Positions 2,338-18,589 of a stretch of 64,000 nt of DNA are shown here, piece after piece; position 1 is the first letter of the stretch, and each line of letters opens with the position of its first letter. The stretch spans positions 1 through 64,000 of the forward strand of contig NZ_QVMP01000010.1 in NCBI RefSeq assembly GCF_010501095.1, read 5' to 3'. Source of the DNA: Dysgonomonas sp. 520. GTDB taxonomy: Bacteria; Bacteroidota; Bacteroidia; Bacteroidales; Dysgonomonadaceae. The notes below the pieces were generated by a model. That model saw only the letters and a program-made list of their open reading frames with translations. It made no database searches and was not told where the DNA came from. Position numbers and translations under genes: made by a program.

Positions 2338-5225
<2,888 letters not shown>

Positions 5226-5351
5226 GTAAAATTATTTCCAACAGTAGGAAGGTTTGCTAGATATGCGTATCAAGTTTTAAGGAATAAGTACAAAGATTTA
5301 AGTAATAACAACTTATCACTTATGACTTTAAACTTATAACTAAATACTATT

Positions 5352-5362
5352 TGCTCTTTACA
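5352..5362 (+). promoter_or_regulatory. boxA-like element before 5S
   Basis: TGCTCTTTACA, very close to the E. coli boxA consensus, lies in the 23S-5S spacer about 100 bases before 5S. The rest of the spacer (5226-5452) is AT-rich with short degenerate direct repeats of AACTTATCACTTA and no other feature. Confidence 0.4.
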
Positions 5363-5452
5363 TCAAGTCTAAAAGTTTTAAGAACAAAGTAAAAAGTTTT
5401 AAGTATAAAAGAAACTTCTAACTGATTACTAATAACTTATCACTTAAAAATA

Positions 5453-5563
<111 letters not shown>

Positions 5564-5617: not shown

Positions 5618-5709
5618 ACCTGCCACCAAAAGACTCAACTTCAAAAACTAAGATATTAGTATATACAGATAAAAGAGATTGAGGCATAAAAAAAATAGGG
5701 TAAAAAGAG

Positions 5710-5739
5710 TTGTTCAAGAAGAATATTTGTCTACCTTTG
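5710..5739 (+). promoter_or_regulatory. promoter pointing into the regulator cassette, locus 1
   Basis: TTG at 5710-5712, 19 bases, then TACCTTTG at 5732-5739, an exact Bacteroidota promoter. It starts after the rRNA terminator and points right, into the 3' end of the minus-strand regulator gene, so today it makes RNA antisense to that gene. The mirror-image locus has an equivalent -7 box at the same distance from its repeat (14116-14123, minus). Confidence 0.6.
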
Positions 5740-5745
5740 TATCAT

Positions 5746-5800
5746 AAAGTAAGATCATAATCAGGAATCTGTCACTGGGTAAGTGACGGATTTTGTTGTT
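5746..5800 (+). ncRNA. candidate 55-nt RNA, locus 1
   Basis: Predicted from parts: a promoter -7 box ending at 5739, a start about 7 bases later, the inverted repeat at 5768-5790 folding as a 9-bp hairpin with loop GGGTA, then TTTTGTTGTT. The hairpin is perfectly complementary over 23 bases to the 5' UTR of the surface-protein gene at 6997-7791, loop facing loop (GGGTA with TACCC). Existence and function are inference. It also runs antisense to the last codons of the regulator gene. Confidence 0.4.
5768..5790. repeat. 23-bp inverted repeat 1L
   Basis: Left copy of a perfect 23-bp inverted repeat whose partner lies at 6886-6908. Internally it is GTCAC-TGGGTAA-GTGAC, with half-sites shared by the second locus but a different centre. 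It holds the TGA stop and last codons of the regulator gene. No target-site duplication is visible outside the pair. Confidence 0.9.
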
Positions 5801-6632
5801 TAAGGGGGTATTGTTTCACATGATTCGCCCCTTTGTTTTTGCGTCTTATCCGGGACGGGGAATCGCCCAGGTTCTTATGGCAAAACTCATTGAAGTGAGA
5901 CAGTGTTGCGAACTTATTCTCAGTCGAAATTTGCTTCAAACTCTTATTCGTATGATAAAGCTCATAATAAATCATATCTGTCCGCCTTTTTCTAATCCAC
6001 GAGTATGCCGACATGCCGAACGCCTTTCTGAACCTCTTGTTAAATCCTGAATAGCTGTAATTCATCACTTGTGCCAATTGTCTGACATTCATTATATTGT
6101 TGGCTAACCTGTGTACCCGGTCCACGAACCGGAAATCATTAATTTGATATGAGCGGAAGAAATCGCTCAATTGCTCCCGTGAATAGGATAGCTTAAGGAT
6201 TGCCATCAGTTCTTTGGTTTTCAGGACGTGCAGGGAGTGATCAGCTATCCTGCTCTTTTTATATATCTCAAGCGACCGTACATACGCCTGTAATACCCCG
6301 TCCATTTGCAGGCAGTATAGGTTTGATTCATGTTCATGTTCATGTATATTGCTTATACAGAAGTGATCAAAACAGCTTTCATCGGTCGGAGCTACAATCA
6401 GCAGATAGCTTTTTTCCATAACACTGGACGACAGCCTGTCGCCTGCAGGCAGGAAAAATAGTTTTGAGCTGCTAACCTGTATTCCAGAAGACAGGCTTAA
6501 GCGTCCTTCCAGCACTATGACAATCCTGCATTGATCTTCTGCGGTATTCCATTCAGAGTCTTTTTCAAGAGTCAGGAAGCGTATCAAGGGACTTTGCGCC
6601 AACGATTCGTTGTTATCATATTTTACCATCAT
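5772..6632 (-). CDS. AraC-type transcriptional regulator, locus 1
   Basis: A 286-residue protein. The C-terminal third (about 175-265) resembles an AraC-type double helix-turn-helix: YSYSGFNKRFRKAF is the first recognition region and KFATLSHFNEFCHKNLG followed by SPSRIRRKNK the second. The first 110 residues look like a cupin-type sensor (VLEGRLSLSSG, LFFLPAGDRL), with no clear ligand motif. Its closest relative in the window is the gene at 13225-14037, strongly alike through the DNA-binding part. The gene fills a segment flanked by 23-bp inverted repeats and its stop codon lies inside the left one. A secreted protein gene starts divergently 364 bases upstream and is the likely target (inference). 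Confidence 0.85.
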   Translation of the reverse strand: MMVKYDNNESLAQSPLIRFLTLEKDSEWNTAEDQCRIVIVLEGRLSLSSGIQVSSSKLFFLPAGDRLSSSVMEKSYLLIVAPTDESCFDHFCISNIHEHEHESNLYCLQMDGVLQAYVRSLEIYKKSRIADHSLHVLKTKELMAILKLSYSREQLSDFFRSYQINDFRFVDRVHRLANNIMNVRQLAQVMNYSYSGFNKRFRKAFGMSAYSWIRKRRTDMIYYELYHTNKSLKQISTENKFATLSHFNEFCHKNLGDSPSRIRRKNKGANHVKQYPLKQQNPSLTQ

Positions 6633-6802
6633 AAAGTTGTTTAAGTATTAAAAACCAGCGTGTTTAACTAAAAACGCACAAGTCTTATTTTTATCAGTTT
6701 TTTAAAATTGTATGTTTTCTACATATAAATAATTATCAATCAATGTATTACTGAAATAGTAAAACGTTTTATTTCCCCGACAGATAACACACGTTTAACA
6801 AA

Positions 6803-6831
6803 TTGCTTACTTGGTTGTATTATCGCCTTTG
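6803..6831 (+). promoter_or_regulatory. candidate surface-protein promoter, locus 1
   Basis: TTG at 6803-6805, 18 bases, then CGCCTTTG, a degenerate TAnnTTTG. The other locus has TAGCTTTC at the matching place, 55 bases from its repeat against 54 here, and both are followed by ATTAATTAAA. It would give a 5' UTR of about 160 nt with repeat 1R at about +49 to +71. The rest of the 6633-6996 gap is AT-rich with no other gene. Confidence 0.4.
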
Positions 6832-6885
6832 TTCCATTAATTAAAGATCATAATACCAGATGTTTACCCCTTGGTATCTGCATCC

Positions 6886-6908
6886 TCCGTCACTTACCCA
6901 GTGACAGA
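6886..6908. repeat. 23-bp inverted repeat 1R
   Basis: Right copy of the perfect inverted repeat pair, 1095 bp from the left one. It sits in the predicted 5' UTR of the surface-protein gene, 88 bases before its start codon. Unlike the left copy it has no T-run after it, so it can fold but should not terminate. Confidence 0.9.
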
Positions 6909-6996
6909 CGTACAATGATTTAAATATTAGGTAATTAAGAAAAAGCAGACTTAACCAAAACAGATTATCAACACGACAAACAAGAATTAGAAGATT

Positions 6997-7791
6997 ATGA
7001 AAAAAAGTTTATTATTCTTACTGCTGTTTTTAGCGGTAACTACCCTCAAATCGCAGGTTGGGGTGAACACGGAAACTCCTCAGGGGGTCTTTCATATTGA
7101 CGGGCAGCGAAACACAAACGGAAACACGAACGTCGCCGACGATGTGGTTGTCACATCAGCCGGAAACGTGGGCATAGGCACGAACAGTCCCCAGACAAAG
7201 GTCGATATCCGCAGCACGACACAAGGCGGTGGATTTAGGTTGCAGGACGGGAGCCAGGGCAATGGTATGGTCTTGACCAGTGATGCCAGCGGCAATGGCA
7301 AATGGTCTGCGCCGGGATTTAGCTTGTTTACGAGGATTGAACCCAATGAATTACCTGTTTCTCAAGGGACAACGGCAATTTTAAGAAACAGTGATGGTTC
7401 TCCCTACTTTATAGAAGTTCCTTCTTTTGGAACATATTCATTTACGATTGGTGCTATGTTAAAATTAACTAATTTAAATGAGAATACAGTAATCGAGTAT
7501 ATGATTTTACAGGTGGTTCCAGGGGATGATGCTAGTTTGTGGTGGTCACTTCATCGCTTTGAGGGCTCGTATGAGATTTATGGGCAGCAGGCTCGTAGAG
7601 ATTTAGAGACAGATTGGCGTTTTTATCTTAGTGAGAATATCTCACTAAACTCAATTACAGGAAATAGGTTGTATTTTGCGCTACAGATAACAGGAACAAA
7701 TATGCCTAGTCCAATAGAGGGAACTTTCACAATAGGTAGCACCCCTAGTTGCCCACAATGTACCGGCGGCTCCTATGTCCGCATCAATTAA
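6997..7791 (+). CDS. secreted fibre-like surface protein, locus 1
   Basis: 264 residues with a signal peptide (MKKSLLFLLLFLAVTTLKS, cleavage about residue 19). Residues 20-108 match the protein at 12075-12890: QVGVNTETPQGVFHIDG, RNTNGNTN, DDVVV, NVGIGTNSPQTKVDIRS, DGSQGNGMVL. The VGIGT-SPQTKVDI pattern is typical of beta-rich trimeric stems in fibre-like proteins of Bacteroidota and phage tails. Residues 110-264 do not resemble the other copy, so the tip domain differs. Two Cys lie near the C terminus (CPQC). The function is unknown; an adhesin or receptor-binding role is inferred. It is transcribed away from the adjacent AraC-type gene and its upstream region carries inverted repeat 1R. Confidence 0.75.
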   Translation: MKKSLLFLLLFLAVTTLKSQVGVNTETPQGVFHIDGQRNTNGNTNVADDVVVTSAGNVGIGTNSPQTKVDIRSTTQGGGFRLQDGSQGNGMVLTSDASGNGKWSAPGFSLFTRIEPNELPVSQGTTAILRNSDGSPYFIEVPSFGTYSFTIGAMLKLTNLNENTVIEYMILQVVPGDDASLWWSLHRFEGSYEIYGQQARRDLETDWRFYLSENISLNSITGNRLYFALQITGTNMPSPIEGTFTIGSTPSCPQCTGGSYVRIN

Positions 7792-7813
7792 GAATAAATT
7801 TAGTACAACGAAG

Positions 7814-7859
7814 AAGGGAACGCCTATATGCAGAAAGGAGTTCCCTTTTTTTATTTTTT
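7814..7859 (+). terminator. terminator of surface protein 1
   Basis: AAGGGAAC and GTTCCCTT form an 8-bp stem with a loop of about 18 bases, followed by a T-rich run to 7859. It ends the surface-protein transcript before the fur-like gene. Confidence 0.8.
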
Positions 7860-7920
7860 GTTAAAAACAGCTATTTCAGAAATACTTTCATTTGAATTAT
7901 ACTCTTTTCTAAAAAAGCCT

Positions 7921-7928
7921 TATATTTG
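7921..7928 (+). promoter_or_regulatory. promoter of fur-like gene
   Basis: TATATTTG, an exact TAnnTTTG, 25 bases before the ATG at 7954. It shows that the 42 codons of open frame upstream of that ATG are not translated. No clear -33 element was seen. Confidence 0.6.
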
Positions 7929-7953
7929 TCTGTATCTTAGTTTCAGCTTAAGA

Positions 7954-8463
7954 ATGGACAACTCAAAGTTAAAAGAACAAGTTAAGAACGAATTCACTGA
8001 ATATCTGACTCTTCACAAGCACAGAAAAACTCCCGAACGTTTTGCTATACTAGATCATATATATTCTACAAAGGGTCATTTCGATATGGATTCATTGTTC
8101 AATTCGATGAATGAAGGTCCGTTCAGGGTAAGCAGGGCAACACTCTACAATACGATTGAATTATTACTGGACTGTAAATTGGTGGTTAAGCATCAGTTTG
8201 GAGCAAATGTGTCGCAGTATGAGCGGGCGTATGGAAGTGAAAACCATGATCATTTGATTTGCATTAGTTGTGGAGATGTAAAAGAATATAAAAGCGGAAA
8301 TTTATTTTCTCTGGCACAACAAAAGAGGTTCATGAAATTTAAGATAAGCTATTACAGCATGTACATTTATGGAATATGCAGTAAGTGTACACGCAAGAAA
8401 GAATCGCAGAGCAAGAAAAACGAAAATAAAATAACTAAAAATAATACAGACAAAAAGAAATGA
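7954..8463 (+). CDS. Fur-family transcriptional regulator
   Basis: A 169-residue Fur-superfamily metalloregulator. The N-terminal winged helix contains RKTPERFAILDHI and VSRATLYNTIELL, the typical Fur recognition-helix region. The C-terminal dimerisation domain has CISCGD and CSKC, the two CxxC pairs of the structural zinc site. A Lys-rich tail follows. The start at 7954 is chosen because the promoter -7 box lies at 7921-7928 and conserved similarity begins there; the open frame runs back to 7828. The stop overlaps the purA start as ATGA, so the two are translationally coupled. The metal or peroxide signal cannot be told from sequence (Fur, PerR and Zur remain possible). Confidence 0.88.
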   Translation: MDNSKLKEQVKNEFTEYLTLHKHRKTPERFAILDHIYSTKGHFDMDSLFNSMNEGPFRVSRATLYNTIELLLDCKLVVKHQFGANVSQYERAYGSENHDHLICISCGDVKEYKSGNLFSLAQQKRFMKFKISYYSMYIYGICSKCTRKKESQSKKNENKITKNNTDKKK

Positions 8464-9734
8464 ATGCAGACATTCTGTTAGGTTTACAGTGGGGAGACGA
8501 AGGGAAAGGCAAAATAGTAGATGTGCTTACACCCGATTATGAAATTATCGCTCGTTTTCAAGGAGGACCTAATGCCGGGCACACACTCGAATTTGAAGGA
8601 GAAAAATATGTATTACGCTCAGTTCCGTCAGGTATCTTTCAGGGAGATAAATTGAATGTGATCGGAAACGGAGTTGTGCTTGATCCGGCATTGTTTAAAG
8701 GAGAAATAGAGTCGTTGGAAGCATCTGGACATGATCTGACAAAAAGGTTGCTTATTTCGAAAAAGGCTCATCTGATATTGCCTACACACCGATTGCTCGA
8801 CGCTTGTTATGAGGCGGCAAAAGGTGATGCGAAAATAGGCACAACGGGCAAGGGCATAGGACCAACTTATACTGAAAAAGTGGGACGTAACGGCTTGCGT
8901 GTTGGAGACTTGTTGTACGACTTCGAAACAAAATACAATGCAGTGAAAGAACGTCATTTGATGATTCTCGCACAAAACAACTTCGATGTCAGTAGCCTGG
9001 AAGAAATTGAAAAAGAGTGGTTTCAGGGTGTTGAGAAACTAAAACAATTCAACTTTATCGATAGCGAGCATTTTATAAATAAAGCATTGCTCGAGAATAG
9101 AAAAGTTTTGGCTGAAGGAGCTCAGGGAACTATGTTGGACATTGATTTCGGTTCATATCCATTCGTGACGTCCTCCAATACCATAGCGGCGGGAGCCTGT
9201 ACGGGGCTGGGAGTTGCTCCGGGGAAAATAGGAGAAGTTTTCGGTATTTTCAAAGCATACTGCACCAGAGTTGGTAGTGGTCCATTCCCGACAGAATTGT
9301 TTGACGAAACAGGAGACAAATTACGCAAATTCGGGTTCGAATTTGGTTCGGTAACAGGACGTCCTCGTCGTTGTGGCTGGATAGACTTAGTTGCCCTGCG
9401 TTATGCAATCATGCTCAATGGGGTTACTCAACTGATCATGATGAAAAGCGATGTTCTGGATACATTCGAAACCATCAAAGCATGTGTTTCGTATAAAATA
9501 GATGGGCAAGAAACAGAAGACTTTCCATTCGAGGCAGATTGCAATATAGAACCTGTGTATGTTGAACTTGCCGGTTGGCAAACAGATATGACAGGCATGA
9601 AGTCGGAAAATGAATTTCCGGAAGAATTTAATAATTATCTCTCTTTTCTGGAGCAAGAGTTGAATGTTCCTATCAGCATTGTATCTGTTGGGCCGGATAG
9701 AGATCAAACTATATCGCTACTTAATAAATCATAA
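8460..9734 (+). CDS. purA: adenylosuccinate synthetase
   Basis: 424 residues, full length. It makes adenylosuccinate from IMP and aspartate with GTP hydrolysis, the first committed step to AMP, in the cytoplasm. The GTP-binding loop QWGDEGKGK spans residues 10-18 with catalytic Asp13. GGPNAGHT follows with catalytic His41. GTTGKGIGP lies near residue 127 and SVTGRPRRCGW near 300. The start overlaps the fur-like stop by 4 bases. No terminator is evident before the peptidase gene, which has its own promoter-like boxes. Confidence 0.98.
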   Translation: MNADILLGLQWGDEGKGKIVDVLTPDYEIIARFQGGPNAGHTLEFEGEKYVLRSVPSGIFQGDKLNVIGNGVVLDPALFKGEIESLEASGHDLTKRLLISKKAHLILPTHRLLDACYEAAKGDAKIGTTGKGIGPTYTEKVGRNGLRVGDLLYDFETKYNAVKERHLMILAQNNFDVSSLEEIEKEWFQGVEKLKQFNFIDSEHFINKALLENRKVLAEGAQGTMLDIDFGSYPFVTSSNTIAAGACTGLGVAPGKIGEVFGIFKAYCTRVGSGPFPTELFDETGDKLRKFGFEFGSVTGRPRRCGWIDLVALRYAIMLNGVTQLIMMKSDVLDTFETIKACVSYKIDGQETEDFPFEADCNIEPVYVELAGWQTDMTGMKSENEFPEEFNNYLSFLEQELNVPISIVSVGPDRDQTISLLNKS

Positions 9735-9794
9735 GAAGTGACCTAGCTTAATGATTTTTAGTTATTTGACATTTTATTAAACAACAAATCTCAG

Positions 9795-9816
9795 TAATTT
9801 TGTTTGATTAAATTTG
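9795..9816 (+). promoter_or_regulatory. candidate promoter boxes of zinc peptidase gene
   Basis: Two exact TAnnTTTG matches, TAATTTTG at 9795-9802 and TAAATTTG at 9809-9816, lie 40-60 bases before the ATG at 9857. Neither has a well-spaced -33 element, and AT-richness makes one chance match likely. Confidence 0.4.
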
Positions 9817-9856
9817 TTTTTTAATATAAATGGATAATTATTAAAGAGAAAGATAT

Positions 9857-10543
9857 ATGAGTGGATATTGGATTCTTATACTATTAATATTTGCTTTGAG
9901 TTGGTTGGTTTCGACCATGTTGCAAAGCAAATTTAAAAAATATTCGAAGATACCATTGGATAACGGGATGACAGGAAGAGATGTCGCCGAAAAAATGCTT
10001 TATGACAATGGTATTTACGATGTGAAGATAACAGCAACAAAGGGCATGTTGACAGATCACTATAATCCTGTGAATAAGACAGTGAATCTTAGTGAGGCTG
10101 TATATCACAGCAATAGTGTGGCTGCGGCTGCCGTTGCCGCTCACGAGTGTGGTCATGCCGTGCAACATGCGCATGCTTATGGTCCGCTGACTATGAGGTC
10201 GAAACTTGTACCGATGGTTAGTTTTGCTTCTCAGTGGGTGATGTGGATATTGATCGCAGGTATTTTTGCCATTCAGGCTACAGGATCGACAACTGTACTT
10301 TGGGTAGGGATAGGCTTGTTTGCCATGACCACCTTGTTCAGTTTCATTACTCTTCCCGTGGAAATTAATGCCAGCCAAAGGGCATTAACATGGCTCAATT
10401 CGGCAGGGATAACCAATCAGACTAATTACCCTATGGCAAAAGATGCACTGAAATCGGCAGCATACACTTATGTTGTAGCAGCTTTGGGTTCTTTAGCTAC
10501 ATTGGTTTATTACATCTTCATTGCGTTGGGAAGTAGAAGGTAA
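9857..10543 (+). CDS. membrane zinc metallopeptidase (YugP type)
   Basis: 228 residues of the neutral zinc metallopeptidase family that includes B. subtilis YugP. An N-terminal membrane segment (about 3-20) precedes a cytoplasmic catalytic part with HECGH at residues 96-100, the HExxH zinc site. Further membrane segments lie near 125-145, 147-170 and 205-225. ITLPVEINASQRAL is a typical conserved segment after the third membrane helix. The substrate is unknown for the family; a role in membrane protein quality control is only an inference. It stands alone between purA and a terminator. Confidence 0.88.
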   Translation: MSGYWILILLIFALSWLVSTMLQSKFKKYSKIPLDNGMTGRDVAEKMLYDNGIYDVKITATKGMLTDHYNPVNKTVNLSEAVYHSNSVAAAAVAAHECGHAVQHAHAYGPLTMRSKLVPMVSFASQWVMWILIAGIFAIQATGSTTVLWVGIGLFAMTTLFSFITLPVEINASQRALTWLNSAGITNQTNYPMAKDALKSAAYTYVVAALGSLATLVYYIFIALGSRR

Positions 10544-10567
10544 AGTAAAGAAAGACAAATCATAGCG

Positions 10568-10606
10568 AAAGGTGTTTGATAAGATAATCAGGCACCTTTT
10601 TTCTTT
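10568..10606 (+). terminator. terminator after zinc peptidase gene
   Basis: AAGGTG and CACCTT, with an inner GAT/ATC pair, form a hairpin followed by TTTTCTTTTTTC. Confidence 0.75.
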
Positions 10607-10847
10607 TTTCGTCCTTTTTCGGAATTTCCCCCAAACAAATTTGTCAGGGTGCACAGGTCTTACATTGTTAATGTCAGGTATCTGTCTCGCATCGAATTAT
10701 ATGATAAGCAAAGCCGGATGTTAATACTTAATAACAATCATCAGGTGAAAACGAGTCAAAATGGCTATAAATTATTGAAGAGTGTTCCGAATTTATAATA
10801 AATCTAAATGTTAAAGGCAGAAAGAAGGCTACTGCCTTATATTTTTC

Positions 10848-10855
10848 TAAATTTG
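10848..10855 (+). promoter_or_regulatory. promoter of phosphoesterase gene
   Basis: TAAATTTG, an exact TAnnTTTG, 26 bases before the ATG at 10881. A small hairpin GGCAG...CTGCC (10817-10837) lies just upstream. The remaining gap from 10607 shows no gene or repeat. Confidence 0.5.
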
Positions 10856-10880
10856 GGATCGAATAATCAAACGTATAGAC

Positions 10881-12047
10881 ATGAAATTTCTATTCTTTTT
10901 AATTCCGATGATATTAATCTATTTGCTCGGAAATTTTTATGTATTTTACAGGGCTTGGACAGCTATGCCACCTACTCCCGTAGGGCGGGCTATACTTATA
11001 ACAGTTGGTTGCATAGTCACTTTATCGTTAATATTGTCCTTTGTTTTAGGAAACATATTGCCGGCGGGAATAGTATCCATTTTATATAAAATAGGCTCGT
11101 CGTGGATTTTCATCCTTATCTATCTGGTTCTTTTCAATCTGATAAAAGATTTGTTCGGTTTGCTGGTCAGATGGGTAAGTTTTATTCCGAACGATGCCAT
11201 AACCCGCTATACGAAAGAAAATTGGGTGGGTTTTGCTTTTATGGTCGGTTTCATCGCCTTGCTGATGCTTTGCGGTTACCTGAAATACAGGTGGAAAGTG
11301 CGGGTCGATCAGCCTATTTATACCGAAAAAGCGATTTTGAAGTCGGCATCCGATTCTATACCGTCATCCGATTCTCTGAAAATAGTGGCAATTAGCGATT
11401 TACACTTAGGTTATAGCATTGGAGATAAAGAATTCAAGAGTTGGGTTGAACTGATTAATAAAGAAAAGCCTGATTTGGTTCTGATTGCGGGGGATGTGAT
11501 TGACAATAATATAGAACCGGTAAATAAAGGTCGCTTTGCTGAATATTTCAAGCAAATCAATTCAAAATATGGAATTTATGCCTGTCTCGGCAATCATGAA
11601 TATATTAGCGGGTTGAAAGAAAGTACTGAATTTTTCAAAAAATCAGGGATAAATTTACTTCGCGACTCGTATGTTGAAGTAGACAGTAGTTTCTATATCG
11701 TTGGCAGGGATGACCGTTCTAACGAAAACAGAAAACCGCTGAATCAATTGATGGCAGGTATAGATAAATCGAAACCGATAATTCTGCTCGACCATCAACC
11801 CTATCATCTGGAAGAAGCCGAAAGTAGCGGCGTAGATTTTCAATTTTCGGGACATACCCATCGTGGGCAAGTTTGGCCTATTTCGATGATAACGGACATT
11901 ATTTATGAAAAATCTTTCGGTTATCTGAAAAAAGGAAAAACCAACTATTATATCAGTTCGGGAATTGGTCTTTGGGGCGGAAAATTCCGTATAGGAACAC
12001 AGTCTGAATATGTTGTAGTTACAATAAAGCAAGAGACAGCACAATAG
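10881..12047 (+). CDS. membrane-anchored metallophosphoesterase
   Basis: 388 residues. Four hydrophobic segments occupy about residues 1-25, 38-60, 75-97 and 114-132, followed by a calcineurin-like phosphoesterase domain from about 166. The metal-binding motifs appear in order: SDLHLG (about 172), AGDVID (about 203), LGNHEY (about 236) and SGHTHRGQ (about 326). The arrangement matches the YkuE/YaeI-type phosphoesterases, some of which hydrolyse lipid-linked substrates. The substrate here is unknown. The gene is monocistronic and converges with the surface-protein gene of locus 2, sharing a terminator. Confidence 0.88.
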   Translation: MKFLFFLIPMILIYLLGNFYVFYRAWTAMPPTPVGRAILITVGCIVTLSLILSFVLGNILPAGIVSILYKIGSSWIFILIYLVLFNLIKDLFGLLVRWVSFIPNDAITRYTKENWVGFAFMVGFIALLMLCGYLKYRWKVRVDQPIYTEKAILKSASDSIPSSDSLKIVAISDLHLGYSIGDKEFKSWVELINKEKPDLVLIAGDVIDNNIEPVNKGRFAEYFKQINSKYGIYACLGNHEYISGLKESTEFFKKSGINLLRDSYVEVDSSFYIVGRDDRSNENRKPLNQLMAGIDKSKPIILLDHQPYHLEEAESSGVDFQFSGHTHRGQVWPISMITDIIYEKSFGYLKKGKTNYYISSGIGLWGGKFRIGTQSEYVVVTIKQETAQ

Positions 12048-12066
12048 GCTGCCTCTTGTCATTTTT
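12030..12066. terminator. bidirectional terminator
   Basis: CAAGAGACAGC and GCTGCCTCTTG form a stem with one mismatch, followed by TCATTTTT. It overlaps the last codons of the phosphoesterase gene and lies between two convergent genes. Confidence 0.6.
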
Positions 12067-12074
12067 ATCTCAGT

Positions 12075-12890
12075 TTAATTTGTAAGGGCAAAAGCTGCGA
12101 TAGCATTCTCAAGGTTCTGAGCTCTTGCTATCACTAGAGGAAACATTCTGTCTGGAGCAGCAAAACTAGCAGCAGATGCATACAATGCAACTGTTACAGG
12201 AGCAGTGTGGATATTGTCTATAATCAAGAATCCGGTTATCATACTGGCTCCAAAAGGATATACTCTTCCACTTACTAAAGAAGTGTTGGTAGGGTATATT
12301 ATATACGGAGCTTCAGCTGCTACAGCGGCTCGAAAATGAGTTCGTACCCATACATGAGCATAAGGGAGATCTGCATTTGTAGGTCTTGTGTACATATTAT
12401 TAGGCATAGCATGTACAGCTACCATAACAAACCATCTGCCGGGAGGCAAACTCAATCTGCATCCGGTATCATAACTTACACCTCCAGTAGTGGTGAAAGT
12501 AAGTCCATCATTGGCAAATATTGCCCGAGGAGCGGCTACTGTTGTTCCCACATCTTGCCACTCAGCCCTTCCTGTATTATCCATCGCAGTCAATACCCTG
12601 CCTATGGCTTGCGAACCGTCCCGCAAGCTGAAACCCTGCCCTTGTGCACTGCTTCTGATATCTACTTTTGTTTGGGGTGCATTTGTTCCTACACCAACCC
12701 TACCTAGGGTATCTACCACTACATCGTCCGAAATGTTTGTGTTGCCGTTTGTGTTTCGTGCCGCGTCAATGTGAAATACACCTTGCGGACTTTCTGTGTT
12801 TACTCCAACCTGTGCCATTAAAGAAACCGATAGGAAGAATATTTGCACAGTAAAAAAAATCTTCGTTTTCATCATTTTGTTTTTTCTCAT
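12075..12890 (-). CDS. secreted fibre-like surface protein, locus 2
   Basis: 271 residues from the first ATG. The tandem ATG at codons 6-7 (12875/12872) may be the true start, since it leaves a standard signal peptide (MKTKIFF to SLMAQ). Residues 27-120 match the protein at 6997-7791: QVGVNTESPQGVFHID, RNTNGNTN, DDVVVDTLGRVGVGTNAPQTKVDIRS, DGSQAIGRVL. The C-terminal 150 residues are unlike that copy and contain GGVSYDTGCRLSLPPGRWFV, which suggests a beta-sandwich tip of C1q/TNF-like shape (a guess from pattern). An adhesin or receptor-binding function is inferred. The gene diverges from the AraC-type gene at 13225-14037. Confidence 0.75.
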   Translation of the reverse strand: MRKNKMMKTKIFFTVQIFFLSVSLMAQVGVNTESPQGVFHIDAARNTNGNTNISDDVVVDTLGRVGVGTNAPQTKVDIRSSAQGQGFSLRDGSQAIGRVLTAMDNTGRAEWQDVGTTVAAPRAIFANDGLTFTTTGGVSYDTGCRLSLPPGRWFVMVAVHAMPNNMYTRPTNADLPYAHVWVRTHFRAAVAAEAPYIIYPTNTSLVSGRVYPFGASMITGFLIIDNIHTAPVTVALYASAASFAAPDRMFPLVIARAQNLENAIAAFALTN

Positions 12891-12949
12891 ATTAGTTGTT
12901 TTGTGTGTTTATGAAATATTTTAATACCTGATTATTTGCATCGCAATCA

Positions 12950-12972
12950 TCCGTCACTTATAAGGTGACAGA
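12950..12972. repeat. inverted repeat 2L
   Basis: A 23-bp repeat with core GTCAC-TTATAAG-GTGAC, matching the partner at 14066-14088 in inverted orientation at 22 of 23 positions. It lies in the predicted 5' UTR of surface protein 2, the equivalent of repeat 1R. Confidence 0.88.
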
Positions 12973-13027
12973 AATGTTAATGCTTTGTTTGTAAAATGTT
13001 TATATCGTGGTATTTAATTAATCGCAG

Positions 13028-13035
13028 GAAAGCTA
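13028..13035 (-). promoter_or_regulatory. candidate surface-protein promoter, locus 2
   Basis: TAGCTTTC on the minus strand (one base off TAnnTTTG), 55 bases inside repeat 2L. The surrounding ATTAT-GC-TTT and ATTAATTAAA match locus 1. It would give a UTR with the repeat at about +50 to +72. The rest of the 12891-13224 gap is AT-rich without a gene. Confidence 0.4.
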
Positions 13036-13224
13036 TAATTCGATAATGTGAGCTATTTGTTAAACATATTCATCGTCCTATGTATATGAGACGTTTTATG
13101 TTATCACTAATATGCTGATAATATGATATTTCAATGAAATAAATGCAGGCTTTGAAAAATATACACAAAAATAATTTGTGCAATTTTCGTTAAACACGCT
13201 GAATCTTAATGCTTAAACAACAAA

Positions 13225-14037
13225 ATGATGAAAAAACTTGATGTTGAGAAACCGATAGATTTCGTCTGTCTGAAACAAGGGCAGACTTTGTGTTTGGAGG
13301 CAGGAGAAAACAAGATTATCCTGGTTGTGGAGGGAGAGGTATATTGTAGCATCTCTAAGATAACGATACTTGCTTCAAAAATGGCTTTTTATTCTTTCAG
13401 AGAAAAAGTATCGGTTGTGGCTGTGAAAGACTCCCAAATCGTTTTATTCCGGTTTTCGTACGAATCGCATCTTTGTAAAGTCTTGTCTCCTTTGGATGTA
13501 ACGACCGAGCGAATAGACGGCAGAACGATTCTGCTTCCGGTGAAAAGCATCATTATGGACTATCTGCAAACCGTTAAAGTATATAACAGCAGGTTTATAG
13601 TAGATAGTTATTTGTCGGACTTAAAGCTAAGGGAATTCGGGTATATACTCAAGTCCGTTTATAAGGAAAACCAATTACAGGATTTTTTCAGGCTTCTGCC
13701 CTATGATGATATGTTGTTTTTTCAGATGGTATATTCATTTCTTCCCGAAATTCGTTCGGTAGGCCAGTTGGCACAAAAAATGAGTTACAGCTATTCGGGT
13801 TTTAACAAGCGTTTTCGACGGGTTTTCAATACATCGGCATACAATTGGATAAAAGAAAATAAGGCGATACAGGTTTTTAGAGATATCTGCCAAACAAACA
13901 TGAGCCTGAAGCAGATTAGCAACAGCCATAAGTTTGCAACCTTATCTCATTTCAATGAGTTTTGTCATAAGAATCTGGGTAATTCACCGTCACAAATTCG
14001 AAGAAAAAATAAAGCGAAACATATTGTTCAACTTTAA
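13225..14037 (+). CDS. AraC-type transcriptional regulator, locus 2
   Basis: 270 residues, a paralogue of the regulator at 5772-6632. The N-terminal sensor-like region (VVEGEVYCSIS) is strongly diverged. The C-terminal AraC-type DNA-binding part (about 175-262) is closely conserved: MSYSYSGFNKRFRRVF, SLKQIS, KFATLSHFNEFCHKNLG, SPSQIRRKNK. The next ATG (13228) is an alternative start. The gene lies in a segment bounded by inverted repeats 2L and 2R, with 1093 bp between them against 1095 in locus 1. Here the stop is 29 bases before the repeat. The divergent surface-protein gene is the likely target (inference). Confidence 0.85.
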   Translation: MMKKLDVEKPIDFVCLKQGQTLCLEAGENKIILVVEGEVYCSISKITILASKMAFYSFREKVSVVAVKDSQIVLFRFSYESHLCKVLSPLDVTTERIDGRTILLPVKSIIMDYLQTVKVYNSRFIVDSYLSDLKLREFGYILKSVYKENQLQDFFRLLPYDDMLFFQMVYSFLPEIRSVGQLAQKMSYSYSGFNKRFRRVFNTSAYNWIKENKAIQVFRDICQTNMSLKQISNSHKFATLSHFNEFCHKNLGNSPSQIRRKNKAKHIVQL

Positions 14038-14054
14038 GAAAAAGTGAACTCATT

Positions 14055-14109
14055 AAATAAAAAAATCTGTCACCTTATAAGTGACAGATGACTTGATGCC
14101 CTGACTATC
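14055..14109 (-). ncRNA. candidate 55-nt RNA, locus 2
   Basis: Mirror of the candidate at 5746-5800. A minus-strand TACATTTG (14116-14123), a start about 7 bases on, repeat 2R folding as an 8-bp hairpin with a 7-base loop, then a run of seven T and ATTT. The hairpin is complementary to the 5' UTR repeat of surface protein 2, with one G-U pair. The terminator shape is stronger than in locus 1. No expression evidence is available. Confidence 0.42.
14066..14088. repeat. inverted repeat 2R
   Basis: Partner of 2L, core GTCAC-CTTATAA-GTGAC on the plus strand, 29 bases past the regulator stop. On the minus strand it is followed by a T-run, so it can act as a terminator for leftward transcription. 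Confidence 0.88.
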
Positions 14110-14115
14110 AGCGAA

Positions 14116-14123
14116 CAAATGTA
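14116..14123 (-). promoter_or_regulatory. promoter box pointing into the regulator cassette, locus 2
   Basis: TACATTTG on the minus strand, exact TAnnTTTG, 27 bases outside repeat 2R and downstream of the rpoC terminator. The -33 region has no clear TTG, so this is weaker than its counterpart at 5710-5739. Confidence 0.5.
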
Positions 14124-14305: not shown

Positions 14306-17300
14306 TTAATCTACATTGTCAAAATCCACAACTGTTTTTCTGTTGGCTGCAACACGATCGAAATCGTCTTTGTTTCCAACAACAAGTTTTTCGAATTCTC
14401 TCAAACCTGTTCCGGCAGGGATTAGGTGACCACAGATAACGTTTTCTTTCAAACCTTCAAGTCTGTCTACTTTCGCATTGATTGCGGCTTCGTTAAGCAC
14501 CTTAGTTGTTTCCTGGAACGAAGCGGCAGACATAAAGCTGGTAGTTTGAAGAGCCGCACGCGTGATACCTTGCAATATCTGATTAGCTGTTGCAGGAACT
14601 GCATCCCTCACTTCAACAGGGCGGAGGTCGCGACGTTTCAGCATAGAGTTTTCATCTCTCAATTTGCGGGCAGTAACAATCTGTCCGGGTTCGAATGTAG
14701 AAGAATCACCAGCGTCTACCACAACCTTTTTACCCCAGATACGATCATTTTCTTCCATAACATCGTGTTTGTCAACAACCTGCTGCTCTAAGAAACGAGT
14801 GTCTCCCGGATCAACGATTTCAACTTTACGCATCATCTGGCGAACAATAACCTCAAAGTGTTTGTCATTGATTTTCACACCTTGCAGGCGATATACGTCC
14901 TGAACTTCGTTCACGATATATTCCTGAACAGCAGTAGGTCCTTTAATGGCAAGGATATCGGAAGGTGTTGTTGCACCATCAGACAACGGCATACCTGCAC
15001 GTACGAAGTCATTTTCCTGAACCAGTATTTGTTTTGAAAGAGGAACAAGATATTTCTTCGTTTCACCTGTTTTAGATGTTACGATAATTTCCCTGTTACC
15101 ACGTTTGATTTTACCAAATGCAACCTCTCCGTCAATTTCAGATACAACGGCAGGATTGGACGGGTTACGAGCTTCGAATAATTCGGTTACACGAGGAAGA
15201 CCTCCGGTGATATCACCAGCCTTACCAACAGCACGAGGAATCTTAACAAGAACATCTCCCGCTTTCATCATCTCCCCGCTATCTTTCATAACGTGAGCTC
15301 CAAGAGGTAAACTGTATGTTTTGATTATATTGCCTTTTTCGTCAAGAATATTTGCCTCCGGTGCTTTAGTCTTATCACGAGACTCGATGATGATTTTTTC
15401 TTTCAAACCTGTTTGCTCATCCGACTCAACCTTGTATGTAACGTTTTCAATTACGTTGTGGAATTGAATTTTACCGGTTGCTTCGGAAATGATCACGGCG
15501 TTGAATGGGTCCCATTCACAGATCAAATCACCTTTCTTAACAGTGTCTCCTTCATTGAAGAAGAGTTTAGAACCATAAGGTATATTATGAGTAAGCAATA
15601 CAATTTTTGTATTCGGGTCAACTACACGAAGTTCAACCAGACGGCTAACCACGATTTGTGCTTTCTTGCCGGTTTCATCCACAGTTTCAACCACACGTAG
15701 GTCGTCTATTTCAAGAATACCATCGTATTTGGTAACAATGCTGTTTTCAGTTGCAATGTTAGATGCGATACCCCCAACGTGGAACGTACGAAGCGTCAAC
15801 TGTGTACCCGGCTCACCGATTGATTGCGCTGCGATAACACCAACTGCCTCACCTTTCTGAACCATGCGGTTAGTGGCAAGATTACGTCCATAACATTTTG
15901 CACAAACACCTTTCTTCGATTCACATGTCAATACGGAACGGATCTCGACACGTTCGATTGGCGAATCCTGAATAAGTGCAGCTTTATCTTCTGTAATTTC
16001 CTCACCGGAGTGAACAATGATTTCAGCAGTGAGAGGATGTTGTATATCGTGAACAGAAACACGTCCAAGGATTCTTTCGTACAGCGAAGCAACAACCTCT
16101 TCGTTGTTCTTCAATTCGGTACAAACAAGTCCACGAAGTGTTCCACAGTCTTCTTCGTTGATGACAACGTCTTGAGATACGTCAACCAAACGACGAGTCA
16201 GATACCCGGCGTCGGCAGTTTTCAGAGCCGTATCGGCAAGACCCTTACGGGCACCGTGGGTAGAGATAAAGTACTCCAACACAGACAGACCTTCTTTAAA
16301 GTTAGAAAGGATAGGGTTTTCAATAATCTGAGCACCTTCCGCTCCACTTTTCTGAGGTTTAGCCATCAAACCACGCATACCGGACAACTGGCGAATCTGT
16401 TCTCTCGAACCACGGGCTCCGGAATCCAACATCATATATACAGAGTTGAATCCTTGATTGTCTTCCGAAAGTTGTTTCATTAAGATATTTGACAATCTTG
16501 AGTTGACGTGTGTCCAAGTATCAATAATCTGGTTGTAACGCTCGTTATTGGTGATGAATCCCATATTGTAGTTAGCCATAATCTGTTCAACTTCATCATA
16601 ACCTTTCGCTACAAGCTCGTCTTTTTCTACCGGAATGATCACATCTTCAAGGTTGAACGACAAACCTCCACGGAATGCCATCATGTAACCCAAATCCTTA
16701 ATATCGTCAAGGAATTGTGCTGTTTTAGCAACTCCCGCAAGTTTGATCACATTACCGATAATGTCACGAAGCGATTTTTTAGAAAGAATTTCGTTGATAT
16801 ATCCAACTTCGGCCGGAGTATGTTGATTTACAAGAATACGTCCTACTGTTGTTTCTTTCATCACGGTAACAGCATTACCGTTTTCGTCCAAATCTCTTAC
16901 ATATACTTTAACGAGTGCGTGAATGTCAACTTTCTTTTCGTTGTAAGCAATGATTGCTTCTTCCGGTCCGTAGAAAGTAAGACCTTCACCCATTGCTCCC
17001 GGACGAATCTTTGTAATATAATACAATCCAAGAACCATGTCCTGAGATGGTACGGTAATAGGTGCACCATTGGCAGGGTTAAGTATATTGTGTGATGCAA
17101 GCATCAACATTTGAGCTTCAAGTATGGCGTCATTGCCCAAAGGTAAGTGAACAGCCATCTGGTCACCGTCGAAGTCGGCATTGAACGCAGTACACGACAG
17201 TGGGTGCAACTGAATAGCTTTACCACCGATCATTTTCGGTTGGAATGCCTGAATACCCAAACGGTGTAGGGTAGGGGCACGGTTCAGAAGAACAGGGTGT

Positions 17301-18589
17301 CCTTTCATCACATGTTCAAGAATATCCCAAACCACAGGTTCTTTACGGTCTACAATTTTCTTTGCCGATTTCACCGTTTTCACTATTCCGCGCTCGATTA
17401 GTTTACGGATAATGAATGGTTTGTAAAGTTCGGCAGCCATATCTTGTGGAATACCGCACTCGTGCATTTTCAATTCAGGACCAACGACAATTACCGAACG
17501 AGCCGAATAGTCGACACGTTTACCCAAAAGGTTTTGACGGAAACGTCCTTGCTTACCTTTCAAACTGTCGGAAAGAGATTTCAACGGACGGTTAGATTCT
17601 GTTTTGATCGCGCTCGATTTACGAGAGTTGTCGAACAATGAATCCACAGCTTCCTGAAGCATACGTTTTTCGTTACGAAGAATCACGTCAGGAGCTTTTA
17701 TGTCTATCAGTCTTTTCAGACGGTTGTTACGTATAATTACACGACGATACAAGTCGTTCAAGTCGGAAGTTGCGAAACGACCTCCATCAAGAGGCACAAG
17801 CGGACGCAACTCAGGTGGAATTACAGGTACGATTTTAACGATCATCCATTCCGGACGGTTTTTACCTTTCGATCCACGGAATGCTTCAACAACCTGAAGT
17901 TGTTTCAGAGCTTCATTCTTACGTTGCTGAGATGTATCTGTATTTGCCCTGTGACGAAGGTTGTTAGCCAAAGAATCGAGATTGATTCTGGCCAACAGGT
18001 CATACACGGCTTCCGCACCCATTTTTGCGATAAATTTGTTAGGATCGGAATCATCTAACAATTGATTATCTTTAGGCAGAGTATCCAGTATATTCAAATA
18101 TTCTTCTTCAGTAAGAAGATCTCTTTCGGCTATACCTTCTTCTTCCTTGATACCCGGTTGTATTACGACATAACGTTCGTAATAAATAATCATATCAAGT
18201 TTTTTGGTTGGTATTCCCAACAGGTAACCCATTTTGTTCGGAAGAGAACGGAAATACCAGATGTGAGCCACAGGCACAACCAAATGGATATGTCCTGTAC
18301 GTTCGCGACGAACCTTTTTCTCAGTTACTTCAACACCGCAACGGTCGCAGACAATGCCTTTGTAACGGATTCTTTTGTACTTACCGCAGTGACATTCAAA
18401 GTCTTTTACCGGTCCGAAGATACGTTCACAGAAAAGTCCGTCACGTTCTGGTTTATAAGTACGATAGTTGATAGTTTCAGGTTTCAAAACCTCACCGCTC
18501 GAACTTTCCAAAATTTCTTCCGGAGAAGCCAGACTTACGGTAATCTTTGAAAAGCTACTCTTTACTTTACTATCTTTTCTAAAAGCCAT
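14306..18589 (-). CDS. rpoC: RNA polymerase beta' subunit
   Basis: 1427 residues, usual length for Bacteroidota. This is the largest polymerase subunit and carries the catalytic magnesium site [12 protein letters not shown] (about residue 470). The N-terminal zinc ribbon holds CHCGKYKR and CDRCGVEV (about 66-88). The second zinc site is [14 protein letters not shown]. The trigger-loop/bridge-helix region includes [10 protein letters not shown] and [19 protein letters not shown]. No gene-splitting or insert is seen. It is the last gene of the rplK-to-rpoC run, followed by a strong terminator. Confidence 0.99.

Follow-up and report, generated by a model that had tools for sequence, protein, structure and literature searches.

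Inverted repeats with matched centres enclose AraC-type regulator genes beside surface-protein genes in Dysgonomonas sp. 520 and suggest a family of invertible cassettes

We analyzed a 64,000-nucleotide (nt) stretch of Dysgonomonas sp. 520 (contig NZ_QVMP01000010.1 of assembly GCF_010501095.1, positions 1 to 64,000; hereafter the window), in which two loci, A and B, each place an AraC-type regulator gene (araC) between two 23-bp inverted repeats, next to a gene for a putative surface protein (Table 1). We use L for the repeat at the 3' end of araC, R for the one on the surface-gene side, and leader for the interval between araC and R. The paired repeats match at 23 of 23 positions in locus A, with 1095 nt in between, and at 22 of 23 in locus B, with 1093 nt in between. 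Each is an imperfect palindrome with arms TCYGTCAC and GTGACRGA around a 7-nt centre, and the window contains four matches to the pattern GTCAC-N7-GTGAC where 0.02 would be expected. A first-pass annotation of this DNA had described the two-locus repeat layout, with AraC-type central genes and -7 boxes 27-28 bases outside the repeat. All of this held: the repeats lie at the positions, identities and spacings it had given, the boxes lie at 28 nt (A) and 27 nt (B), and both regulators match HTH_18 above the cut-off, as expected of the two-helix-turn-helix (HTH) DNA-binding domain of the AraC family. It made no mention of the hairpin that every repeat forms on its own, with T's after one side.

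The two loci belong to a large family. Across the source genome (G000; 3.91 Mb in 68 contigs), GTCAC-N7-GTGAC has 82 exact sites and the reversed control pattern none; 81 of the 82 fall within the 40 loci examined, and the remaining one was not placed. Searching the genome with the locus A AraC protein gave 48 matches, and complete repeat-araC-repeat cassettes number 39, with lengths of 1073-1213 bp, the two window loci among them. Not counted among the 39 are five AraC-like matches that lack a pair of sites close by (two in L049 and one each in L071, L082 and L083) and four weak AraC matches whose surroundings were unexamined. The outside flanks are common to the loci on both sides of the cassette, so the cassette seems to have been duplicated together with its promoter and surface gene. 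Beyond repeat R, an open reading frame (ORF) with a signal-peptide-like start follows in 35 of the 37 cassettes classed below as unflipped; the exceptions are L047, with no such ORF within 450 nt, and L072, which lies near a contig end. The surface proteins of the window had no domain above the cut-off in Pfam (threshold 5) or NCBIfam (threshold 1), and single-sequence structure prediction of the locus A protein gave no usable fold (mean predicted local distance difference test score, 34).

Repeat centres are matched within loci and differ between them. In 38 of the 39 cassettes the repeats match in inverted orientation and share an identical 7-nt centre (permuted mean 3.3, maximum 11), which is the arrangement of paired inverted sites with a matching core expected of an inverton. 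Mismatches within these 38 pairs occur at 0 of 266 centre positions and 25 of 608 arm positions. Between loci, 44% of centre positions differ as against 3.4% of arm positions, extending to the whole family the earlier remark that half-sites are kept while the centre varies from locus to locus. Among close paralogs the centre has changed at both ends together, as between TGGGTAA and TGAGTAA cassettes whose interiors are 89-93% identical. The first-pass annotation had also proposed asking whether centres co-vary within pairs in related genomes: ten site pairs were found there by the site pattern, all with matching centres, and four of them have changed arms. A centre that changes from locus to locus but stays identical inside every one of these pairs behaves as a strand-exchange overlap does. 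Overlaps that behave in this way are established for the tyrosine recombinases Int, Cre and Xer.

Both orientations of the cassette occur between the same kind of flanks, another hallmark of an inverton, across paralogs and relatives alike. Within the source genome, L073 and L084 carry the promoter-like flank on the opposite side, and a leave-one-out flank comparison marks just these two of the 39 as flipped; in L073, araC is directed at the surface gene. Among relatives of genus g7, the recombinase and fibre-like genes of L231 align +/+ with those of L180, L182 and L187, while the cassette aligns +/-. Against L180 this +/- alignment spans 1.03 kb of cassette, and one side of it stops at the outer end of the repeat.

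A candidate enzyme is found beside the sites. In four relatives, at five loci (L126, L127, L130, L132 and L133), a gene for a tyrosine recombinase of about 410-430 amino acids directly adjoins a site. The source genome has one close homologue, at C6:55264-56535 (423 amino acids) near cassette L084, with Arm, SAM-like and integrase domains above the cut-off. In alignment A1 of ten homologues, H364, R367, H390 and Y399 are invariant and R266 nearly so; we take these to be the catalytic residues. For a wider view we used recombinase loci from a contig-collection scan, the best 80 of 313 relatives, which include several loci per genome, so the following counts are not independent. An AraC-like gene lies within 3 kb at 23 of the 80 loci, and 21 of these have flanking inverted repeats, with 18 cassettes directed toward the recombinase and three away from it. 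Under a stricter rule, by which an ORF must be flanked by perfect repeats of 17 nt or longer, 20 of 22 AraC-like ORFs qualified as against 0 of 509 other ORFs at the 80 loci. The module of recombinase and invertible-looking AraC cassette recurs in several Bacteroidales groups. Among the family genomes, a recombinase homologue (E<=1e-40) occurs in 28 of 101 and TCYGTCACN7GTGACRGA in just 5 of 101; exact site pattern and homologues are not one-to-one, and several relatives have variant half-sites.

The outside of repeat L carries a promoter-like sequence, which we call P_ext. A -7 box of the form TAnnTTTG, a consensus named in an excerpt of PMC3090145, lies 27-29 nt outside this repeat in 36 of 39 cassettes, and a -33 TTG stands at a gap of 18-21 from it in 15 of the 36. 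Between P_ext and araC, repeat L has the features of an intrinsic terminator. The first 10 nt inside it hold 6.5 T's on average (at least six in 30 of 39 cassettes), compared with 3.3 inside repeat R (at least six in 4 of 39). Outside and inside flanks pair and lengthen the stem, with a mean of 5.0 consecutive pairs versus 1.6 when inner flanks were permuted among loci; 0 of 20,000 permutations reached the observed value, and again none with 27 unique pairs. Mean predicted folding energy rises from -22.2 to -15.4 kcal/mol at the modelled flipped junction, where the fold is weaker in 38 of 39 cassettes. A consensus terminator scan marked both window sites as terminator-like and facing P_ext (11 listed in the region versus 5.7 expected).

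We read the 1.1-kb repeat-araC-repeat units as invertible cassettes that would mediate phase variation, OFF as seen here and ON when flipped, with a probability of roughly 75%. Site-specific recombination as the mechanism is strongly supported. What the sequence itself shows is that sites come in pairs, that their centres agree, that paralogs and relatives include cassettes of either orientation, that recombinase genes are linked to them in relatives, and that terminator signals are present. Recombination is also the one that stands among the mechanisms offered in the first-pass annotation; RNA-RNA pairing and a protein dimer are not needed, because they would leave unexplained the two orientations, the neighbouring recombinase genes in relatives and a centre never mismatched in 38 pairs. 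The 23-bp repeats would be tyrosine recombinase sites, composed of conserved half-sites and a 7-nt overlap. As the two overlaps would have to be identical, a cassette would flip with itself, although a locus that has the same centre could in principle also be its partner. P_ext would be fixed in place immediately beyond repeat L. In the present orientation, this repeat and the T-run inside it would form an intrinsic terminator that halts P_ext, and no canonical promoter appears to face araC or the surface gene; with P_ext stopped at repeat L, both genes are probably silent. A flip would relocate the T-run to the far end, and P_ext would then read the leader, araC and finally the surface gene. 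One recombinase, that of C6, probably acts in trans on the approximately 40 cassettes. Flipping in cells, the C6 enzyme as its agent, the ON state and the role of AraC are what we infer.

Table 1. Features of loci A and B in the window (positions counted from the first letter of the window)
Feature	Position	Strand	Details
Locus A, outside promoter P_ext, -7 box	5732..5739	+	TACCTTTG; TAnnTTTG, 28 nt outside repeat
Locus A, possible -33 box of P_ext	5710-5712		TTG
Locus A, repeat L (araC 3' side)	5768..5790		Proposed recombination site, TCTGTCAC-TGGGTAA-GTGACGGA; also terminator stem; contains araC stop codon
Locus A, predicted intrinsic terminator for P_ext, present orientation	5764..5801	+	Stem 5764-5794, T-rich tail within cassette
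Locus A, AraC-type regulator gene	5772..6632	-	286 amino acids; Pfam HTH_18 2.3e-16, ExsA_N 3.8e-08
Locus A, cassette leader (araC to repeat R)	6633..6885
Locus A, repeat R (surface-gene side)	6886..6908
Locus A, surface protein gene	6997..7791	+	264 amino acids; signal-peptide-like start; N-terminal part common to paralogs
Locus B, surface protein gene	12075..12890	-	271 amino acids
Locus B, repeat R (surface-gene side)	12950..12972		Centre TTATAAG
Locus B, cassette leader	12973..13224
Locus B, AraC-type regulator gene	13225..14037	+	270 amino acids; Pfam HTH_18 3.6e-14
Locus B, repeat L (araC 3' side)	14066..14088		Proposed recombination site and terminator stem
Locus B, predicted intrinsic terminator for P_ext	14055..14089	-	Stem 14089-14065, T-rich tail
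Locus B, outside promoter P_ext, -7 box	14116..14123	-	TACATTTG; 27 nt from repeat

Locus A begins just downstream of a 23S-5S ribosomal RNA operon (window 2339-5562), and locus B adjoins the end of a large gene reading as rpoC (window 14306-18589). Elsewhere in the source genome, several incomplete or shortened relatives of the cassette were seen. L049 (contig C67) has AraC-like pieces near a surface gene with no sites nearby, possibly a decayed cassette. L083:3657-4880 (C5) is an AraC-like gene with a single site beside a surface operon; no second site was found at the expected place when up to 3 mismatches were allowed. L071:3695-4111 (C54) is a short, invertible-looking segment whose sites lie 394 nt apart, start to start, with no araC inside. 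Its promoter box is of the kind seen at the cassettes, and repeat and flanks form a longer stem that is followed by T's; downstream are a 695-amino-acid gene read as fibre-like, a 449-amino-acid gene reading as thioredoxin-like and, two genes on, an AraC-like gene. In the relative G067, the site pair at L130:1-486 lies 367 nt apart, with repeats that extend outward into a 71-nt inverted repeat, and L131 holds a near copy of this pair where another contig ends. In Alistipes, Prevotella-type and Bacteroidaceae genomes (L207, L214, L215, L230 and L242), a short inverted repeat pair, 155-310 nt apart, stands just downstream of the recombinase homologue, of type TCTCTT..AAGAGA in L215, L230 and L242 and GTCACT in L207 and L214; these pairs are possibly ordinary invertible promoters.

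Several observations weigh against cassettes that are OFF now and ON when flipped. Just 2 of 39 are flipped. The shifted -7 box of L073 contains a mismatch (TATATCTG) and either of its outside flanks can pair with the inner flank. In L084 the T-run sits by the 5' end of araC, beside P_ext as now placed, so as a flipped cassette it would remain terminated and misfits the simple rule. L074 has no T-run and a predicted fold that is better when flipped, the -7 box of L062 is degenerate, and cassettes of relatives mostly have no T-run (2 of 21 reach six T's in 10 nt on the side of the recombinase). Of the two adjacent cassettes in L079:3652-8569 (C22), the first pairs the centre TTGGTAA with TTGTAGA and looks as if it had been made by recombination between the neighbours; with unmatched centres it should be locked. 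The genome holds 28 PF00589 and 11 PF00239 matches, and the assignment of the C6 recombinase draws on neighbourhood and homology. At 57 of the 80 recombinase loci no AraC-like gene lies within 3 kb, and many of these have a short repeat pair near the recombinase that resembles ordinary invertible promoters. Finally, a weak AraC-dependent promoter may lie next to repeat R.

This last point leads to an alternative that we consider unlikely, though worth keeping in view: the cassettes are invertible but ON in the present orientation, with AraC, made from its own promoter, binding motifs beside repeat R and driving the surface gene, so that a flip would turn it off. The prevalence of the present orientation (37 of 39) would suit this account, as would the motif TTAAACA, which occurs 90 times in the 39 leaders against 5.4 expected, in 35 loci; one cluster of it is centred some 160 nt away from araC, in the part of the leader toward repeat R. 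However, the leaders hold no conserved TAnnTTTG on either strand, where about 5 per strand are expected: there is one on the araC strand, and the surface strand has five, none of them closer than 193 nt to R, so that this strand is free of the box within 190 nt of repeat R in the 39 cassettes. The surface-gene promoter that the first-pass annotation had placed 54-55 bases from the second repeat accordingly finds no conserved box there, and a conserved TAnnTTTG marking a promoter inside the segment, as in classical invertible promoters of the fimS or Mpi type, was not found in the 39 leaders. The leader may hold a divergent or activator-dependent promoter for the surface gene. An ON state at present would also leave the conserved P_ext and terminator without a role.

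Non-inverting explanations fare far worse. It is very improbable that the repeats are operators for AraC or another dimer, for example in DNA looping: they are imperfect palindromes flanking a regulator gene, but operators need neither mutual inversion nor a common asymmetric centre, and 38 of 39 pairs have both; flipped cassettes and recombinase linkage would go unexplained, and the motif strongly enriched beside araC is TTAAACA. We give hardly any credence to repeats as the ends of a transposon-like AraC element spread to about 40 places, which the dispersed copies with terminal inverted repeats might evoke, given that the two window cassettes hold an AraC-type gene only and no transposase within their terminal repeats, that outside flanks on both sides are common to loci, and that outside and inside flanks pair at the same locus. 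Equally slight is the chance of locus-specific silencing in which a short P_ext RNA with hairpin L pairs with hairpin R of the surface-gene mRNA: in the present orientation such an RNA would contain L, which is complementary to R, bar arm mismatches, in 38 of 39 cassettes, and the predicted terminator would release it, but reversed cassettes and recombinase linkage stay unexplained; RNA pairing could accompany inversion as a side effect.

We tentatively suggest, as a possibility with the odds against it, a genome-wide combinatorial switchboard in which about 40 AraC cassettes, with recombination sites that also serve as terminators, are flipped by a single tyrosine recombinase and the AraC of an ON locus acts on others, giving a hierarchy or near-exclusive expression of a single surface protein. 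Among the 39 AraC paralogs the recognition-helix residues are near-invariant, and conservation across the family is 77% in the HTH part and 48% in the N-terminal part. Together with the enrichment of TTAAACA, this makes shared operators and cross-talk between loci plausible; cross-action is proposed on the grounds that the recognition helices are shared by the paralogs and that the motif is present in nearly all cassettes. If inversion is correct, one genome would hold a large phase-variable set of surface genes, probably under one recombinase; the recombination site would double as a transcription terminator, and the DNA that flips would include a regulator gene. The 39 cassettes would then serve as natural replicates for limits on the number of ON surface proteins, for core matching versus inter-locus recombination and for growth of the family.

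Among the open-access papers listed in our literature searches, neither an invertible AraC gene nor a set of about 40 such cassettes came up, and nothing related was among the matches listed for Tsr15, Tsr19 and Tsr26. The first-pass statement that no described system has this layout was nonetheless too strong, since surface-gene inversion in Bacteroidales and the CwpV terminator switch with its promoter outside are known. Surface inversions, a master invertase and an invertible terminator are known parts, and the invertible regulator gene in about 40 copies is the part not found in print. The CwpV switch of Clostridioides difficile, as far as it is set out in excerpts of PMC2784873, is an invertible terminator of surface-protein phase variation: a site-specific recombinase inverts one 195-bp segment between 21-bp inverted repeats, the promoter lies outside, and the OFF orientation has a predicted intrinsic terminator at the repeat-segment junction. 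Our cassettes share the inverted repeats, the outside promoter (by sequence, in 36 of 39) and a terminator predicted at the junction in one orientation only, with L074 and L084 as exceptions. They differ in that they measure 1.1 kb and carry a regulator gene, which the CwpV segment, in the excerpted text, does not, in their 39 complete copies, and in that the repeat itself is the terminator stem. The L071 segment, with sites 394 nt apart (start to start) and no araC inside, is nearer to CwpV in its plan.

Tyrosine recombinase inversions of Bacteroides fragilis outer surface proteins were reportedly described by Weinacht in 2004, and a 2007 title is said to concern action on a distant site. The segments of these systems are reportedly promoters without a regulator gene. 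Ours would resemble them as DNA inversion affecting surface proteins in Bacteroidales, an order in which such inversions are known (excerpts of PMC12632263). The proposed single enzyme acting on many scattered surface loci recalls Mpi of B. fragilis, a master invertase of at least thirteen regions (PMC5903667 and PMC12632263, in the portions that treat it). Unlike the enzyme proposed here, Mpi is serine-type, and it inverts promoter regions. The Salmonella Hin segment is about 1 kb in size. Like our cassettes, it is an invertible segment that holds a gene for a DNA-binding protein and controls a surface antigen, according to the part of PMC5903667 that covers it. The Hin segment, however, carries its recombinase gene inside; in both window loci the gene inside matches AraC-type domains only, and here the regulator lies inside the segment and the promoter outside.

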